From Natrialba sp. SSL1 (GTDB lineage Archaea > Halobacteriota > Halobacteria > Halobacteriales > Natrialbaceae): DNA of 64,000 bases. Location: positions 434,001 through 498,000 of the forward strand of contig NZ_MASN01000035.1 in NCBI RefSeq assembly GCF_001861355.1, written 5' to 3'. Positions 26,174 to 51,532 of the stretch are shown one piece after another. A model generated the notes under the pieces. The model had not been told where the DNA came from. It saw only the letters and a list, made by a program, of their open reading frames with translations, and made no database searches. The position numbers and the translations under genes are program-made. Position 1 is the stretch's first letter. Each line of letters starts with the position of its first letter.

Positions 26174-28318
26174 TCAGGCGAGGACGGCAGTTACGTCGTC
26201 ATCTGTCTCGGTCCCGTTCGATGGCGGACAGTCGCCGTTGGTGTCAGTCTCGTCTTCGCCGTCACCGTTGACGTACTCGTCTTCGTCACCGTTCACGTCA
26301 ACACCGTTCTCCGGTTCGTCGGTCACGTCATCGATCGCGTCGTAGTCCACGAGAATGACCATGATCGTCGCCTGTTCGATGGTCACGTCGAACGTGCCGG
26401 TCGCTGACTCTTCGTCAGTATCGGCAGACTCGTTGGTATCTGCCTCGTCAGGGCCAGGGCAGTCCGTTTCGGTTTCGGTGTCCGTGTCAGTCTCGTCGTC
26501 AGCGCCCGTCTCGGTCTCCGTCTCCGCTGTCTCGTCCATCACACCGTGGTCGTCAAGCACGACGAAGACGGTCGCCTGTTCGATCGTCACCTCGAGTGCG
26601 TCGTGTTCGTCGGTATCCGTGTCATCCATCTCGTCGTCGGCGTCACCGTCGTCGTACTCTTCAGTATCGTCGTATTCGTCAGCATCGTCTGCGCGGTCGT
26701 CAGCGTCGTCGTAGTCGTCGGTTTCGTCATCGCCGTCGTACTCCTCGTCAGTGTCTGCTGGCTCATCGTGGTCGTCAGCCGAGCCACAGCACGCATCCAC
26801 GTCAGTCTCAGCCGTTTCTTCGTCGTCGGTCACGTCGTCGGTTTCTGTCTCAGTCTCGGTTTCGGGCTCCGTTTCCGTTTCAGTCTCGGTTTCCGTCTCC
26901 TCATCGTGCTCGACAGCATCAGTGTCCTCACCGTCGTCGTCGACGCCATGAGCAACCACGATGATCGTCGCGGACTCGAGTGTCAGTTCATCGTGCTCGT
27001 CGGTCATCGGTGCCTCATCTGGGAGGTCGTCGTCCTCGACGACGACGAGGATCGATGCGCTGTGGATGTCGTGGGCGTCGGTGGGTTCGTCACCGGCTTC
27101 GTCGAGACCGGTGATCGTTGGTTCTTCGATGGTGACCTCGAGCTGGTGGTCACTCATTGCCCCGTTGTGGTCCTCGTGGTCGGATTCTTGGGATTCTTGG
27201 TCGTGTTCGTACTCCTGATCGTGCTCTTGATCGTGTTCGTGCTCCTGGTCGTTGTCGTACCCGTCCTCGTGGTCCTCGTAGCCCTCGTGCAGATCGTGCA
27301 CGACGAGGAGGGCGCTGTCGATCGTGACGGTTAGTTCGCCGTCGTGTGGTGTTTCGGCTGGTTCCTCATCGTCGACAGGGGGTTTCGGGTCGTCAACGGG
27401 TTCGTCGTCGATTTCGTCGGTTTCGTCGGTTTCGTCGGGTTTGTCGTGGTCGTCAGGTTTCTCGTCTTTCTCGTCCTTCTCCTCCTTGTCATCCTTGTCG
27501 TCTACCGCGTCCTCATCCTCTTTCTCATCGTCCGTCTTCTCATCCGGCTTTTCGTCCTTCTCATCCGGCTTTTCCTCGTCCGGCTCGTCAACCGGTTTCT
27601 CATCATCGACCGGATCCTCCTCGTCGACTGGCGGCTCATCGTCAACCGGATCCTCCTCGTCGACTGGCGGTTCCTCATCGACCGGTTCGTCCTCCTCAGG
27701 AACCTCATCCTCGATCGTCACAACCGCCTCGTCGGTCACCGGCTCATCATCCGCCGTCAAGTACGGGCCATCTTCTGCACCCTCTGTCTCGACGAAATCG
27801 TACTCCTGATTATCGTTCGTATCCAGGTGCGGCATCGCGATCAGCGTCTCGTCCTCCTCGAGTGGCTCCTCGAATTCGATCTCGATCTGCTCGTGGGTGC
27901 CCGCCTCGAGGTAGTCGGAGGTGCCGATCACGCTGTCGAACGTTTCGCCGACGAGAAGGCTGCTATCGTGGATCGTGACGAAGCCGCCCTCAGGGAGTGT
28001 CGCCTCGTCGACGACGACGGAGTCACCGGCGGTCGACTGATCTTCGAACGTGACCGTCGCGGTTTCGGCTTCGTCGTCAGGGTCTGGTTCGAGCCCCTGA
28101 TCGTCAGCGTCGGCGTCGGCATCCGCTCCGTCACCGCTGTCAGTCTCGTCGGTAGCTGTACCGTCCGATTCTGTCTCTGGTTCGGCGTCTGTTCCAGTCT
28201 CACCCTCGTCCTGGCCGCTGACACTCGCGCTTGGTGTCGCCCCAGCGACCATCGCTGCGCCCGATGTCACGAGCAATGCCGTGACGAGGAGTACAAGTAG
28301 CTGATTGCGTGCGATCAT
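26174..28318 (-). CDS. Extremely acidic secreted protein with DUF7282-like domain and spaced beta repeats
   Basis: The protein has 714 residues. It begins with a Sec-type signal peptide (hydrophobic 6-27, AxA-like ending near 26). Residues about 87-205 form a domain with TLPEGGFVTIHDSSLLVGE, IGTSDYLEAGTHE and TLIAMPHLDTNDNQEYDF, the DUF7282 pattern seen in haloarchaeal surface proteins (from memory). A Pro/Asp/Glu/Lys linker with PVDEEDPVDDE repeats follows (205-325). Then five short hydrophobic strands of the type EVTIEQATIFVVL stand at about 328-343, 392-405, 444-458, 575-589 and 643-657, separated by Asp/Glu/Thr/His tracts. No anchor is seen at the C-terminus. The start at 28318 fits the signal peptide. 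Confidence 0.75.
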   Translation of the reverse strand: MIARNQLLVLLVTALLVTSGAAMVAGATPSASVSGQDEGETGTDAEPETESDGTATDETDSGDGADADADADDQGLEPDPDDEAETATVTFEDQSTAGDSVVVDEATLPEGGFVTIHDSSLLVGETFDSVIGTSDYLEAGTHEQIEIEFEEPLEEDETLIAMPHLDTNDNQEYDFVETEGAEDGPYLTADDEPVTDEAVVTIEDEVPEEDEPVDEEPPVDEEDPVDDEPPVDEEDPVDDEKPVDEPDEEKPDEKDEKPDEKTDDEKEDEDAVDDKDDKEEKDEKDEKPDDHDKPDETDETDEIDDEPVDDPKPPVDDEEPAETPHDGELTVTIDSALLVVHDLHEGYEDHEDGYDNDQEHEHDQEHDQEYEHDQESQESDHEDHNGAMSDHQLEVTIEEPTITGLDEAGDEPTDAHDIHSASILVVVEDDDLPDEAPMTDEHDELTLESATIIVVAHGVDDDGEDTDAVEHDEETETETETETEPETETETETDDVTDDEETAETDVDACCGSADDHDEPADTDEEYDGDDETDDYDDADDRADDADEYDDTEEYDDGDADDEMDDTDTDEHDALEVTIEQATVFVVLDDHGVMDETAETETETGADDETDTDTETETDCPGPDEADTNESADTDEESATGTFDVTIEQATIMVILVDYDAIDDVTDEPENGVDVNGDEDEYVNGDGEDETDTNGDCPPSNGTETDDDVTAVLA

Positions 28319-28536
28319 AATCTGCCGTGAAGGCAGTGACCCATCGCCAGTTCCGTGCTTAAACCGGCACAACCATTTCGAGAGAAACTGCTCACTTCGA
28401 ACGCAGGGTATGCGTGGATGCCAGCGCTATTCATCGAAAGCGGTCATTGGTACCGTGGGTGGCCGCGAGATGGTTCTCGAAAGCCTCCGCACGGAAAGAC
28501 CACACGCGAGCCTACGCTGCTGACTCCGGTTGCGCT

Positions 28537-46909: not shown

Positions 46910-48655
46910 ATGGCAGGTCCCACCGGCACTCGAGTACTCGCCCTCCCGCCGACCGCGGTACTCGAGCGATCGGTTGCAACCCTCGAAGACATCGCGGTGA
47001 CGGTCGGGCCGGATGCGGTCTGGCTGTTCGGATACGCGCGTGAGCCGACGGCGGCGGCCCGCGCGCGCCACGTCATGGACGTGCCGGTGATTCACCCGCC
47101 GCTCGAGACGGCCGACAGTGGGGCGCTCCCTCGACACAGGATTAGTGACGAACTCGAGTTCGCCGTGGCGCAGCATCCGCGGGCGCTCGGTGCGGTTGCT
47201 GGTGCTGGTGCTGATGTTAGTACTGATTCTGGTTCTGATGTTGGGGCTGATTCTGGTGCTGATAGTGCTGCTGATGGTGGTAACAGTGCTGCTGATGGAG
47301 ACAGCAACAGTGACGGTAACGGGAATGATGACGGGAGCAAAACTGGACCCCTGAGTCACGACGCCCTCATGAGTCACGACGCCCTCATCTGCGACCACAT
47401 CACGACCACGACGCGGCCCACCGCACTCGAGACGACCCTCGATCACGCGGACGAACTCGCGGCGGCGCTCCCGGCCGGCCAGGAGACGACCGTCCTGACC
47501 GGCGGGCTGCCCGCCGGCTACGACGAACGGTGGCACCTCGACGCCGGGACGGGAGCCGTCCGAACCGTCGAGCACGATCCGCTGCGTTCCGCCGAGCCAG
47601 TCGCCGACGACGCCGTTGCGGTCCGCGTCCGGGGAGCCGGTCCCGTCGACGGCTACGGCGGCGCGAAATCCGTGGTGGCACTCGAGTACAGTCCTGACGG
47701 AACACTCTCGAGTACAGCCTACGCACCTGGTGATTTCGGACTCGAATCGGTTACCGGAGTCGGCCAGAAGACAGCGAACCGCCTCGAATCGCAGGGAGTG
47801 ACGACTCGGTCGGAGCTACTCGAGTTGTCCGTCGCTGCGCTCGCCGATATCGATGGAATCGGGGCAAAGAGCGCGCGTCGAATGCACGAGCACGCGCGGG
47901 TACTCGAGTCGGGCGAGCCGCGGCGGCTCACAGACGAGCCACTCCCCGGCGAAGCGTGGGGACGACCACCGCTCTGTCTCGACATCGAAACCGACGGGCT
48001 CTCGCCCACGATCATCTGGCAGATTGGGGTTTACGATCCCGAATCGGACACCCATCGGGCGTTCGTCGAGCGCGACGACCCCACCGACCGGGAATCGGTC
48101 GTTCGGGAGTTCTGCGACTGGTTGCTCGGCGTTCACCCAAATCGGGCGCTGCTCACCTGGAACGGCCGGGGATTCGACTACCGACATCTGGATGCGTTCG
48201 TCGCCCGCCACTGCCCCGAGTACGTCGACGACTGGGAGTCAGTTCCGAAGTTCGACCTCTACCGCTGGGCGACCGACCGTGAGGACACCGGCAACGCGCT
48301 CCTCCCCGGCCGGACGAACGAACTCGACGTCGTCGCGACCGAACTCGGCTACGAAGGCCTGGGAACCGGACTCAACGGCGCGCGAACCGCGGCGGCGTAC
48401 CAACGGTTTATGCGGACGGAGGAGCCGGGTATACTCGAGTGGGACCGCCACGAGGCCTACTGTGAGGACGACTGTCGGGCGCTGTGGCACGTGTACGAGC
48501 GGCTTCGAGATGCACCGCGAGCGTCGGGTGTGGTGGGGTCGGCTGGATCGGCGAGAGCAACGGGATCGACGGAGTCGTCTCCAGACGAAGGCAGCTCACA
48601 CGCCGACAGCACTGGCGGTTCGACCAGCGAGCAGACCGGACTTGGTGATTTCTGA
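46910..48655 (+). CDS. HhH - DEDD exonuclease protein, MrfB-like
   Basis: The 581-residue protein contains a helix-hairpin-helix pair (about 275-330, VTGVGQKTANRLES and IDGIGAKSARRM) and a C-terminal DnaQ/RNase H-fold exonuclease with LCLDIETDGLSP (358-361), TWNGRGFDYRHL and YCEDDCRAL, the acidic residues of YprB-type nucleases. Its TGA overlaps the next ATG, coupling it to the DUF1998 helicase, the same gene pair as Bacillus mrfB-mrfA (mitomycin repair). A linker (about 95-150) of Ser/Asp/Gly/Ala uses T-ending codons unlike the rest, and contains an exact 18-bp tandem duplication at 47353-47388. Confidence 0.78.
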   Translation: MAGPTGTRVLALPPTAVLERSVATLEDIAVTVGPDAVWLFGYAREPTAAARARHVMDVPVIHPPLETADSGALPRHRISDELEFAVAQHPRALGAVAGAGADVSTDSGSDVGADSGADSAADGGNSAADGDSNSDGNGNDDGSKTGPLSHDALMSHDALICDHITTTTRPTALETTLDHADELAAALPAGQETTVLTGGLPAGYDERWHLDAGTGAVRTVEHDPLRSAEPVADDAVAVRVRGAGPVDGYGGAKSVVALEYSPDGTLSSTAYAPGDFGLESVTGVGQKTANRLESQGVTTRSELLELSVAALADIDGIGAKSARRMHEHARVLESGEPRRLTDEPLPGEAWGRPPLCLDIETDGLSPTIIWQIGVYDPESDTHRAFVERDDPTDRESVVREFCDWLLGVHPNRALLTWNGRGFDYRHLDAFVARHCPEYVDDWESVPKFDLYRWATDREDTGNALLPGRTNELDVVATELGYEGLGTGLNGARTAAAYQRFMRTEEPGILEWDRHEAYCEDDCRALWHVYERLRDAPRASGVVGSAGSARATGSTESSPDEGSSHADSTGGSTSEQTGLGDF

Positions 48656-51532
48656 ATGGCAACGAACGAGGACGGAGATGGGGGAGATGAGGGAGAACAG
48701 GGCGATCAGGATGACCAGGGCGACCAGCAAGCGATCCCGATCACCGGCGAGGAATTACGAGAGACGTTCCCGCGCGCAGGCGCTCGCGAGTCTGGTGACA
48801 TCTCCGTCCTCGAACTCCCCGGCCGGGACGCAGCGACCGTCTCGAACGCGGACGTACTCCGCCCGGAACTCGCCGAGCAGTTGGAGCACGACCTCTACGC
48901 CCATCAGGCTGAAGCGCTCGAGGCACTCGAGTGTGGGAAGAACGTCTGTGTCGCGACGAGCACCGCCTCGGGGAAGACGCGAATCTATGCGCTCCAGATT
49001 GCGAGACACTATCTGGACGCGCGTGATCGGACCGCAGGGGACGGCGGCAAAAAGGGGAAGGGGAGACAGAACGGAGGCGAGAAAACGGGTGCACGTGCAG
49101 CGGCGACTCCCACACCGACCGCCTACATCTGCTACCCCACGAAAGCCCTCTCGCGCGACCAGGAGCGCGAACTGAACGACCTCTACGACGACCTCGGCCT
49201 CGACATCACCGTCCGCGTCTACGACGGCGACACCGAACGCGGAGAGACGCGCCGCCAGATCCGCGAGGAGGCGGACGTCATCATCACCAACTTCGCCGGC
49301 GTGAACACCTACCTGCACGACCACGACCGCTGGGCACGCTTCTTCTCCGCCTGCGACCTCGTGGTGATCGACGAGTCCCACACCTACACCGGCGTCCACG
49401 GCATGCACGTCGCCTGGATTATCCGCCGACTGAAGCGCGTGCTCGCCTACTACGACGCCGATCCGCAGTTCGTCCTCACCAGCGCAACGATCGGAAACCC
49501 GGGCGCGCACTCGAGTACCCTGATCGACGACCCGGTAACGGTGGTCGACCAGGATGGCTCGCCGACGGGACCGCGGGAGCTGGTGCTGTGGAATCCGCCG
49601 CCGCAATCGGGCGAGGAAGACGGGGACAGGGCCGGTGCCGAAAACCCCGTCACCGACCGCGTCCCTGCCACCGTCGAAGCGCCGCGACTCCTCTCGCATC
49701 TGACCTACCACGACGCCCAGACGCTGCTGTTTACGCCCTCCCGGAAGCTCGCCGAACTCTCAGTCAAGCGCGCGGCGAAACACCGCCGCGACCGGTCGCG
49801 ATACTACACGAACCCGGACCGGGGCAGCGCCATCGAACCCTACCACGCGGGCCACTCAAGACGAAATCGCCACGGCACGGAACATCAGCTCAAGACCGGC
49901 GTGCTCGACGGCGTCGCCTCGACGAACGCACTCGAGTTGGGGATCAACGTCGGCGAGATGGACGCCACCGTCCAGTTGGGCTACCCCGGCCAGCGCCAGT
50001 CGTTCTGGCAGCAGATCGGCCGCGCGGGACGCGGGGCCAAACGCGCGCTCTCGGTGCTCGTCGCCGGTCACCGCACACTGGACCAGTACGTCGTGAACAA
50101 CTCGGAGTACCTCCTCGAGAACGACGTCGAGGACGCCGTCGTCGACACCGAGAACGACGCGGTCTTCGCACAGCACCTGCTCTGTGCGGCGGCCGAACTC
50201 GCGCTCGACGAGCGCGACGCCGGGGAGGACGGACTCGACGAGCGCGACGCCGGGGAGGACGGACTCGCCGACCGCGAGCGACTCGAGCAGGCGGTCGAGA
50301 TGTGGCGACGCGCAGGGAAGCTCACGGGCCACCTCGAAACGGGCGTCTCCTACACCGGCCCACCCAGACCGCAGCGGTCGATTTCGCTGTACGCCACGAC
50401 CGGCGAGGAGTACACGGTCGAACTCGCCGACGGCGTCGACGAGCGCCACGATCCGGAGATGGAACCGCTCGCCGAGGAGCGCGTCCTGCGGGACTTCCAC
50501 GAGGGCGCAGTCAGGCTTCACGAGGGCCAGCAGTACGAGGTCTGCGCGGTCGATCACACGACGCCGCGGCCGTCGGTGACGCTGCGGCCGACGGACGTGG
50601 AGTACTACACGCGGACGCGCACGGACGTGACCGTCCTCGACGCCGTCTCGGAGGAGTCGCGCGAGATTGGGTCCTTTACGCTCCACTTCGGCCGCGGGCG
50701 AGTGCTCGTCTATCACGACGCCTACGACGAGGTCGCGATCCACGGCGGCAAGAAAAAAGCGCAGCAGCTCCCCACCGGAAACCCACCGCTCTCGATGGAG
50801 ACGCAACTGTGCTGGCTCGAGGTCCCAGAGCGCGTCGAGTCCACACTGGTCGAGCGGTACCGCGACTTTTCCGTGCCGGAACTGGACAGCGACCTCGCAG
50901 ATACCGCCCACCTCGGCTACGCGGGCGGCCTCCACGCCGCCGAGCACGCGACGATTGGCGTCGCCCCACTCGAGTTGATGGTCGACAAGCGCGACCTCGG
51001 CGGACTGGCGACGCTGTCGATCGACTCGCATCTGGCCAGCGCCGCATCGGACGGAAGCGGTGACGACGAGACGGGCGTTGGCGAAGATCCCGCCCCGCAG
51101 AACATCGCCGCTGCTGAGGCGACCGTCAGAGAACTCGCGATGGGGCTCGAGCGCAAACCCGCGAGCGGCTGGTTCATCTACGACGGGATCGACGGCGGCC
51201 TCGGTTTCTCGCGAGCGATCTACGAGAACTTCGAGGCTGTCGCCCGACGGGCGCGCGACCTGATCGAAAACTGTGACTGCGGCCGCATCGACGGCTGTCC
51301 CGCCTGCGTGATGGACGACCAGTGCGGGAACGATAACCAGCCGCTACACCGCGGCGCTGCTGTCGACGTGCTGGATCACCTCCTGGCGAGTGCGAGTGAG
51401 GATGGTATAAAGAGTGTACTCGAGTCCGATCTGCTGGTAGACGACGGTGAGAGCGGAGATGGAGATAGAGATGGCGACAAGCATGACACTCGTGAGAGCG
51501 ATGACAGACGGCCGCCGCTATTCTACGCCTGA
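48656..51532 (+). CDS. DEAD/DEAH helicase with DUF1998 domain, MrfA-like
   Basis: The 958-residue protein has a Q-motif-like region, Walker A as TSTASGKT (about 101-108), a DESH box in VVIDESHTYTG, the SAT motif (LTSATIGNPG) and QQIGRAGRGAK (motif VI). The C-terminal DUF1998 region carries a Cys cluster, NCDCGRIDGCPACVMDDQC. This is the YprA/MrfA helicase type, a 3'-5' helicase of DNA repair. It is coupled to the nuclease upstream. An exact 30-bp tandem duplication at 50204-50263 repeats DERDAGEDGL. The gene ends 4 nt from the convergent prolyl oligopeptidase stop. Confidence 0.85.
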   Translation: MATNEDGDGGDEGEQGDQDDQGDQQAIPITGEELRETFPRAGARESGDISVLELPGRDAATVSNADVLRPELAEQLEHDLYAHQAEALEALECGKNVCVATSTASGKTRIYALQIARHYLDARDRTAGDGGKKGKGRQNGGEKTGARAAATPTPTAYICYPTKALSRDQERELNDLYDDLGLDITVRVYDGDTERGETRRQIREEADVIITNFAGVNTYLHDHDRWARFFSACDLVVIDESHTYTGVHGMHVAWIIRRLKRVLAYYDADPQFVLTSATIGNPGAHSSTLIDDPVTVVDQDGSPTGPRELVLWNPPPQSGEEDGDRAGAENPVTDRVPATVEAPRLLSHLTYHDAQTLLFTPSRKLAELSVKRAAKHRRDRSRYYTNPDRGSAIEPYHAGHSRRNRHGTEHQLKTGVLDGVASTNALELGINVGEMDATVQLGYPGQRQSFWQQIGRAGRGAKRALSVLVAGHRTLDQYVVNNSEYLLENDVEDAVVDTENDAVFAQHLLCAAAELALDERDAGEDGLDERDAGEDGLADRERLEQAVEMWRRAGKLTGHLETGVSYTGPPRPQRSISLYATTGEEYTVELADGVDERHDPEMEPLAEERVLRDFHEGAVRLHEGQQYEVCAVDHTTPRPSVTLRPTDVEYYTRTRTDVTVLDAVSEESREIGSFTLHFGRGRVLVYHDAYDEVAIHGGKKKAQQLPTGNPPLSMETQLCWLEVPERVESTLVERYRDFSVPELDSDLADTAHLGYAGGLHAAEHATIGVAPLELMVDKRDLGGLATLSIDSHLASAASDGSGDDETGVGEDPAPQNIAAAEATVRELAMGLERKPASGWFIYDGIDGGLGFSRAIYENFEAVARRARDLIENCDCGRIDGCPACVMDDQCGNDNQPLHRGAAVDVLDHLLASASEDGIKSVLESDLLVDDGESGDGDRDGDKHDTRESDDRRPPLFYA

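Follow-up and report, generated by a model that had tools for sequence, protein, structure and literature searches.

A haloarchaeal nuclease-helicase gene pair resembling Bacillus MrfAB, with a PIP-like C-terminus and a phosphoesterase-like N-terminal domain

Helicases of the YprA type serve both DNA repair, as in MrfAB, and defence, and the route by which such helicases reach their DNA targets is the question raised by a locus of Natrialba sp. SSL1 (source genome of 4.58 Mb in 61 contigs). The window, i.e., the whole stretch of DNA that was analysed, spans 64,000 nucleotides and contains two adjoining genes, encoding a nuclease (gene B) and a helicase (gene A). A first-pass annotation had read 46910-51532 as an operon of a YprB-type exonuclease and a DUF1998 helicase that repeats the Bacillus mrfAB pair, with a helix-hairpin-helix (HhH) pair as an archaeal addition to the nuclease. 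The operon was recovered with exact open reading frames and clear matches to both families, and the HhH pair does lie ahead of the exonuclease domain (E values below); the kinship with mrfAB and the archaeal origin of the HhH pair are taken up in the third section. Two further features of gene B described below, its N-terminal domain and its PIP-like C-terminus, are absent from that annotation.

The locus, its linkage and its distribution

The features of the locus, together with the standalone YprB of the same genome, are as follows.

46910-48655 (+): gene B, open reading frame from ATG, 581 aa; nuclease
46910-47740 (+): N-terminal domain of gene B, residues 1-277; predicted calcineurin-type metallophosphoesterase fold without metal ligands
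47197-47298: tandem repeats in gene B, 12/24 bp, in-frame
47207-47368 (+): low-complexity acidic/Ser-Gly insert of gene B, about residues 100-153 (alignment; pLDDT <50)
47741-47899 (+): (HhH)2 of gene B, residues 278-330 (Pfam HHH_5, E 5.6e-12)
47972-48505 (+): DEDD exonuclease domain of gene B, residues 355-532 (Pfam RNase_H_2, PF13482, E 1.6e-30)
48632-48652 (+): PIP-like box QTGLGDF of gene B, residues 575-581, at the extreme C-terminus (motif match)
48656-51532 (+): gene A, open reading frame from ATG, 958 aa; YprA/MrfA-family SF2 helicase
50204-50277: tandem repeats in gene A, 30 bp, in-frame
50939-51325 (+): MZB domain of gene A with the cysteine cluster C873, C875, C881, C884, and C890 (Pfam; conservation)
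G000:C35:95369-95818 (-): match of the standalone YprB (L001; PF13482)

The ATG of gene A directly abuts the stop codon of gene B, with 0 bases between them in the open reading frame list of the window. Gene A carries the Pfam families DEAD, Helicase_C, and MZB (the renamed DUF1998; residues 762-885, E 4.1e-16), and its best solved relative is B. subtilis YprA/MrfA (6znp, E 1.2e-87), followed by Lhr-type helicases at about 1e-13. Each of the five cluster cysteines is kept in 99% of 79 paired helicases. A genome search identified gene A as the single MZB helicase of the source genome, and the one other PF13482 protein is the standalone YprB of 250 aa, located on the same contig 386 kb off. Gene B is 88% identical to its N. 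chahannaoensis ortholog. Neighbouring genes in the window are thyA, DHFR, aconitase, an S9 peptidase, and purD (aconitase, DHFR, and purD named by eye), and no partner genes of DISARM, Druantia, Dpd, or ARMADA were found at the window locus. As separate observations, the tandem repeats correspond to length-variable inserts, one in each gene, and a 732-aa open reading frame elsewhere in the window (26174-28372, minus strand) has a signal-like start, very long Glu/Asp/Thr-rich repeats, and an AT skew of -0.36, and is probably a surface protein.

The first search for related loci returned 31 loci, with the helicase next on the same strand in 31/31. Among the 87 distinct gene-B loci in the whole set of fetched loci (gene B >250 bits), the helicase lies downstream on the same strand without exception; its open frame overlaps gene B or starts within 100 nt in 80 of them and is 118-1348 nt off in the other 7, one of which owes this distance to a frameshift of gene B (L018). 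The linkage and PIP counts refer to 87 distinct members with the window entered once, and the 87 residue-conservation rows represent 86 distinct sequences with the window entered twice (as W and L002). The pair adjoins thyA and DHFR in 23/23 Natrialbaceae loci (L004-L025, L029), as in the window, and no such neighbours were seen in the remaining 8 of the 31 loci, which include a contig of only 4.6 kb (L028). The thyA neighbourhood across Natrialbaceae argues for a resident, inherited function.

Relatives of gene B above 280 bits occur in 55/145 genomes of the order Halobacteriales and are patchy outside Natrialbaceae, where many copies are plasmid-borne. In a sample of the phylum, 28/295 genomes match gene B at E <= 1e-14, every one in the same order, and two of these (G048, G071) match only through a metallophosphoesterase-HhH-exonuclease class described below. 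Relatives were also found in 36 plasmid records, of which 34 are labelled "ribonuclease H-like domain-containing protein" and 2 carry no annotation; Halobacterium salinarum R1 has a plasmid-borne copy of the pair (OE_RS12870/OE_RS12865). In that strain, the pair on PHS3 is followed by a third co-directed gene for a small PF13482 exonuclease of 214 aa without a PIP box (L157, 9432-10076). On a Halorussus salilacus plasmid (L159, 2165-10722), a ThiF/Prok-JAB gene, a second YprA-type helicase, and the pair are all co-directed in this order, a cassette that looks like a defence-type one; a second YprA-type helicase ahead of the pair is also present in L065. Furthermore, a PF13482 match is found in 145/145 genomes of the order and is nearly always a short standalone YprB, i.e., an orphan core nuclease of haloarchaea, and a YprA of ~780 aa is common there. 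Elsewhere in the phylum, many archaea have YprB adjoining its helicase. Searches of the open-access literature showed no account of the haloarchaeal nuclease or of its PIP box.

Domain structure of gene B

Gene B is predicted to consist of a pseudo-metallophosphoesterase domain, (HhH)2, a DEDD-type exonuclease domain, a disordered linker, and a PIP-like box, and the AlphaFold model of the whole protein has a mean pLDDT of 78. In the exonuclease domain, D358 and E360 are present in 87/87 rows and D423, Y517, and D521 in 86/87, and H514 is present in just 62/87. The Y517-x3-D521 spacing suggests a DEDDy-like enzyme. The nearest structures to this domain by VIA are the proofreading domains of family B polymerases (5mdn PolB, Z 15.9, 171 aligned, 3.3 Å), and the matches of a fold search with the whole protein were filled by exonuclease domains. 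A PDB profile search with gene B gave HhH proteins and one weak PolC exonuclease among the matches listed, and the nearest solved HhH pairs are those of L32e, RadA, and NusA. No TPR family was matched in gene B by Pfam at E <= 1.

Residues 1-277 matched no Pfam family. A phosphoesterase was suspected here because a plasmid class of proteins (L094-L097) has Metallophos, HHH_5, and RNase_H_2 in the same order. The fold was examined on a predicted model of the isolated segment of one ortholog (L009; 260 aa, pLDDT 89), for which the top 13 Foldseek matches are all phosphoesterases (E 1.8e-4 to 4.8e-2) at low TM values of 0.27-0.42, the best VIA match is Rv0805 (Z 11.0, 178 aligned, 3.7 Å), and all 50 VIA rows are phosphoesterases as judged by their titles. 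Mre11/SbcD is among the matches (Z 8-8.8) and is not the best, and kinship with Mre11 is thus not claimed. Calcineurin-like metallophosphoesterases bind their metals through the motifs DxH, GD, GNH[DE], and GHxH. Among the gene-B rows, GHxH occurs in 0/87, strings of the DxH and GN[HD] type are few and all located away from the motif places, and a loose GD string is seen in 22/87. An hhalign comparison of the N-domain alignment with the intact phosphoesterase class gave a probability of 18, aligned just the last strands and the HhH region, and yielded no domain-level match. Since sequence profiles show no link and the Foldseek TM values are low, the fold call rests on the predicted structure; on that basis, the N-terminal ~270 aa appear to be a decayed phosphoesterase, with a phosphoesterase-like fold kept and the metal ligands lost. 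The acidic/Ser-Gly insert of this domain is present in the window and L004 and missing in the other 23 aligned orthologs, in an alignment of 24 of the 31 loci from which near-copies (L005, L007, L011, L016, L017) and broken genes (L018, L025) were left out.

Gene B ends in EQTGLGDF. In its loose form, the PIP motif was defined as Q, any two residues, L/I/V/M, any two residues, and F/Y/W, with <=3 more residues at the C-terminus. A C-terminal match is present in 83/87 distinct gene-B members, 3 have the near-variant QGTLGDxY, and 1 is frameshifted (L018). The ~30 residues ahead of the box are hypervariable (columns mostly gapped or 20-45% identical), and residues 541-581 have a pLDDT under 50. 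Among unrelated open reading frames of the fetched loci, the loose form occurs in 9/2138 and the strict form in 2/2138; 3 of the 9 loose matches belong to a single SRAP protein family, which may itself bind PCNA. Gene B is the sole match among the 183 window open reading frames of at least 150 aa. The box was absent from 8/8 standalone YprBs, and from the C-terminus in 35/35 YprBs of other archaea of the phylum (28 paired, 7 standalone).

The expected PCNA clients of the source genome, used as positive controls, have a C-terminal PIP box as gene B does and are otherwise unrelated enzymes: RNase HII (EQTGLGQF, nearly identical to the end of gene B), Fen1 (TQTGLDRWT), NreA (LQTNLNAFSQ), and PolD2 (KQSGIEDFM). 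In the available text of a review of H. volcanii, the box is given as QxxLxxFx and its carriers as RNase H2, Fen1, PolD, and the Nre proteins, and NreA with its C-terminal PIP is stated to be required against mitomycin C in that organism (PMC7776575). The motif, its conservation, and the PCNA clients of the same genome together suggest that the tail of gene B probably docks on PCNA, with the caution that a PIP box is a motif of seven residues.

Relationship to MrfAB and to other HhH-exonucleases

The pair is the same as MrfA/MrfB in that a YprA-family helicase with MZB lies beside a PF13482 DEDD exonuclease. The available text of PMC11194089 gives the MrfB residues as D107, E109, D172, H258, and D262, with a wedge L113 at D+6; L364 of gene B matches this wedge, and the distance of 65 from D358 to D423 equals that from D107 to D172. 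By contrast, MrfB has a His at the general-base position (H258, four before D262, in the same text of PMC11194089), where gene B has a Tyr in 86/87 rows, the remaining row being frameshifted; this comparison rests on published residue numbers because the PDB profile searches yielded no direct sequence alignment. The profile search with the standalone YprB gave weak DnaQ-fold matches only. MrfB also has a C-terminal TPR, which gene B lacks, and gene B has a phosphoesterase-like domain, an (HhH)2 of Pfam strength, and a PIP box in addition. The order of the haloarchaeal pair is nuclease-helicase, unlike the Bacillus order yprA-yprB.

Gene A and gene B both fall outside the MrfA/YprB side of their trees. 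In a helicase tree of 38 hand-picked rows (15 paired, 7 of 15 solo, and 14 of 28 other pairs), unrooted and with the partial sequence of MrfA as its one bacterial row, a 100/100 branch sets the 16 haloarchaeal partners apart from the rest, MrfA groups with the 14 helicases of other archaeal YprB-YprA pairs (96/91), and the unlinked haloarchaeal YprAs of ~780 aa constitute a third group. In an earlier, likewise hand-picked tree that included four large defence-type helicases (31 of 77 paired, all 15 solo, and 4 of 5 "large"), 32/32 partners form one clade (100/99). L025, in which gene B is broken, was kept out of both trees. The single clade of partner helicases in each tree (32/32 and 16/16 rows) indicates that the two genes have remained linked. 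The exonuclease tree unites gene B with the metallophosphoesterase class (100/98) against paired and standalone YprBs; this tree is unrooted, long branches meet in it according to a program warning, and one row starting in the HhH region (L024_B) was kept.

Other archaeal YprB-YprA pairs have the nuclease first with overlapping frames in 28 loci (L165-L184, L192-L194, L196-L200), and their YprBs share with gene B a GIG-type HhH motif ahead of the exonuclease. They differ in that the C-terminal PIP is absent and the helicases belong to another clade, with MrfA. Pfam support for HhH in these YprBs is weak (HHH_5 at E 2e-4 and 0.019 in 2/9), no phosphoesterase family was found in the 9 scanned, and no HhH was detected by Pfam in the standalone haloarchaeal YprB L001. 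The TM0106 family (COG2251, TIGR03491) is not known to have a helicase partner. The HhH-exonuclease half of this family matches residues 278-530 of gene B at 42 bits, below the curated cut-off of 97 bits and over model positions 214-460 only; the model matches the metallophosphoesterase-HhH-exonuclease class at 56 bits and does not match the one paired YprB tried (L168). The N-terminal nuclease of TM0106 is of the PD-(D/E)xK (RecB) type, not a phosphoesterase, in the available text of PMC3985635. The HhH pair is hence not an addition peculiar to this operon, contrary to the first-pass annotation: TM0106 combines HhH with the same exonuclease fold, and ordinary archaeal YprBs have the GIG-type motif, although with weak HMM support.

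The proteins nearest to gene B in the exonuclease tree are the plasmid class introduced above, which has the same domain order.

L094 4326-5765 (-); L096 5573-7018; L095; L097: two-nuclease proteins related to gene B, near Cdc6-type genes on small contigs

In a profile comparison of gene B with this class, the aligned part begins in the final strands of the phosphoesterase and runs through the whole exonuclease, with a probability of 99. The class differs in having intact phosphoesterase motifs (Metallophos, E 3.3e-9) beside a weak HHH_5 and RNase_H_2, in lacking a PIP box and a helicase neighbour, and in adjoining an SRAP gene. That gene (HMCES/YedK-type; L094, 5919-6635, plus strand) is divergent from the two-nuclease gene and ends in EQSGLGEFSS, likely a PIP box judging from the motif, with similar tails in L095 and L097; the two genes are possibly an abasic-site repair module tied to PCNA.

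The pair is not assigned to the MrfAB lineage, since its exonuclease module most resembles that of a TM0106-like protein of the phosphoesterase-HhH-exonuclease type. The trees and the TM0106 matches are most simply explained if gene B is a TM0106-like HhH-exonuclease, formerly fronted by a phosphoesterase, that was coupled separately to a YprA helicase. As the trees are unrooted and contain one partial bacterial sequence, independent assembly is a strong lead, short of proof. The earlier statement that the locus repeats the Bacillus pair therefore stands for the coupling of the same two activities (YprA-family helicase and DnaQ-fold exonuclease) and falls for descent, since both trees place the pair elsewhere and the catalytic His and TPR of MrfB were not found.

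Proposed mechanism and its alternatives

The pair is probably a PCNA-tethered helicase-exonuclease that processes lesions or stalled ends and was assembled independently of MrfAB, and a role in DNA repair is its most natural reading. HhH pairs grip the DNA backbone, and in eukaryotic replicative polymerases the inactivated phosphoesterase domains of the B-subunits have a structural or docking role. In the mechanism that we infer, covering PCNA binding, exonuclease activity, direction, and substrate, the PIP box of gene B would dock on the sliding clamp PCNA, the HhH pair would hold the DNA backbone, and the former phosphoesterase domain may, by analogy, serve as a structural or docking domain. 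Gene A, judging from its homology to MrfA, would unwind in the 3'-5' direction from a nick or ssDNA gap. The exposed strand would then be removed 3'-5' by the DEDD domain, and the gap refilled by a polymerase that shares the PCNA ring. Candidate lesions are adducts of the mitomycin type, for which MrfAB and NreA, itself a PIP carrier, offer analogies, as well as 3' ends blocked at forks, and others. The patchy spread (55/145 genomes) would be unusual for core repair and counts against this reading, as does the defence-like setting of some plasmid copies, which have a ThiF/JAB gene and another YprA-type helicase as neighbours.

MrfAB orthology as first stated was rejected on the Tyr in place of His and on the positions in the helicase and exonuclease trees. 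A true ortholog, repairing mitomycin adducts as in Bacillus with only the accessory domains diverged, is accordingly improbable: the two families lie side by side, the wedge Leu and the D-D spacing equal those of MrfB (PMC11194089, available text), and YprB-associated YprA helicases are filed as a repair branch in the available text of Bell et al. (PMC12458937), but MrfA clusters with the other archaeal pairs, the exonuclease groups elsewhere, the catalytic His is replaced in 86/87 rows, there is no TPR, and separate standalone YprBs are general across the order (a PF13482 match in 145/145 genomes), where a ~780-aa YprA is also common. Somewhat less improbable, at perhaps one chance in a few, is a replisome-associated 3'-end processor, i.e., an enzyme that, bound to PCNA, edits 3' ends that are blocked or mispaired or trims Okazaki or RNA ends, rather than excising adducts. 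The resemblance of the exonuclease to polymerase proofreading domains, and of the PIP box to the one in the replication-linked RNase HII, would suit such a role; its patchy occurrence is ill-suited to a core replication step, however, and editing needs no helicase partner. The helicases of DISARM, Druantia, and ARMADA also belong to the YprA family and suggest an anti-virus or anti-plasmid module, to which the patchiness, the 36 plasmid records, and the ThiF/Prok-JAB and second-helicase genes ahead of the pair on some plasmids would correspond. PADLOC gave no match for gene B, however, gene A scores <=117 bits against defence helicase models, the level of a generally related helicase, and the window locus sits between housekeeping genes without defence partners, so that a defence role there is the least likely of these readings and quite doubtful.

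Relative to MrfAB, the new elements are the probable PCNA tag and the apparently decayed phosphoesterase domain, in a pair that is MrfAB-like on paper and departs from it in the markers tested (His, TPR, and tree place). It is conceivable, though we hold this wider account only tentatively, that haloarchaea assembled a second machine of the MrfAB kind out of different components: a phosphoesterase-HhH-exonuclease whose phosphoesterase activity was lost would have acquired a PCNA box and been permanently coupled to its own YprA lineage, with the dead phosphoesterase as a scaffold. The case draws a line between working like MrfAB and being MrfAB, and gene B would be an exonuclease protein whose second enzyme domain has decayed with its predicted fold kept. 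If true, this would be a clamp-guided helicase-exonuclease with a dead phosphoesterase scaffold, a parallel to the B-subunits of eukaryotic polymerases. For YprA-type helicases and their route to DNA, the putative clamp-binding tag on the nuclease partner suggests an answer: the haloarchaeal helicase may be delivered by PCNA.
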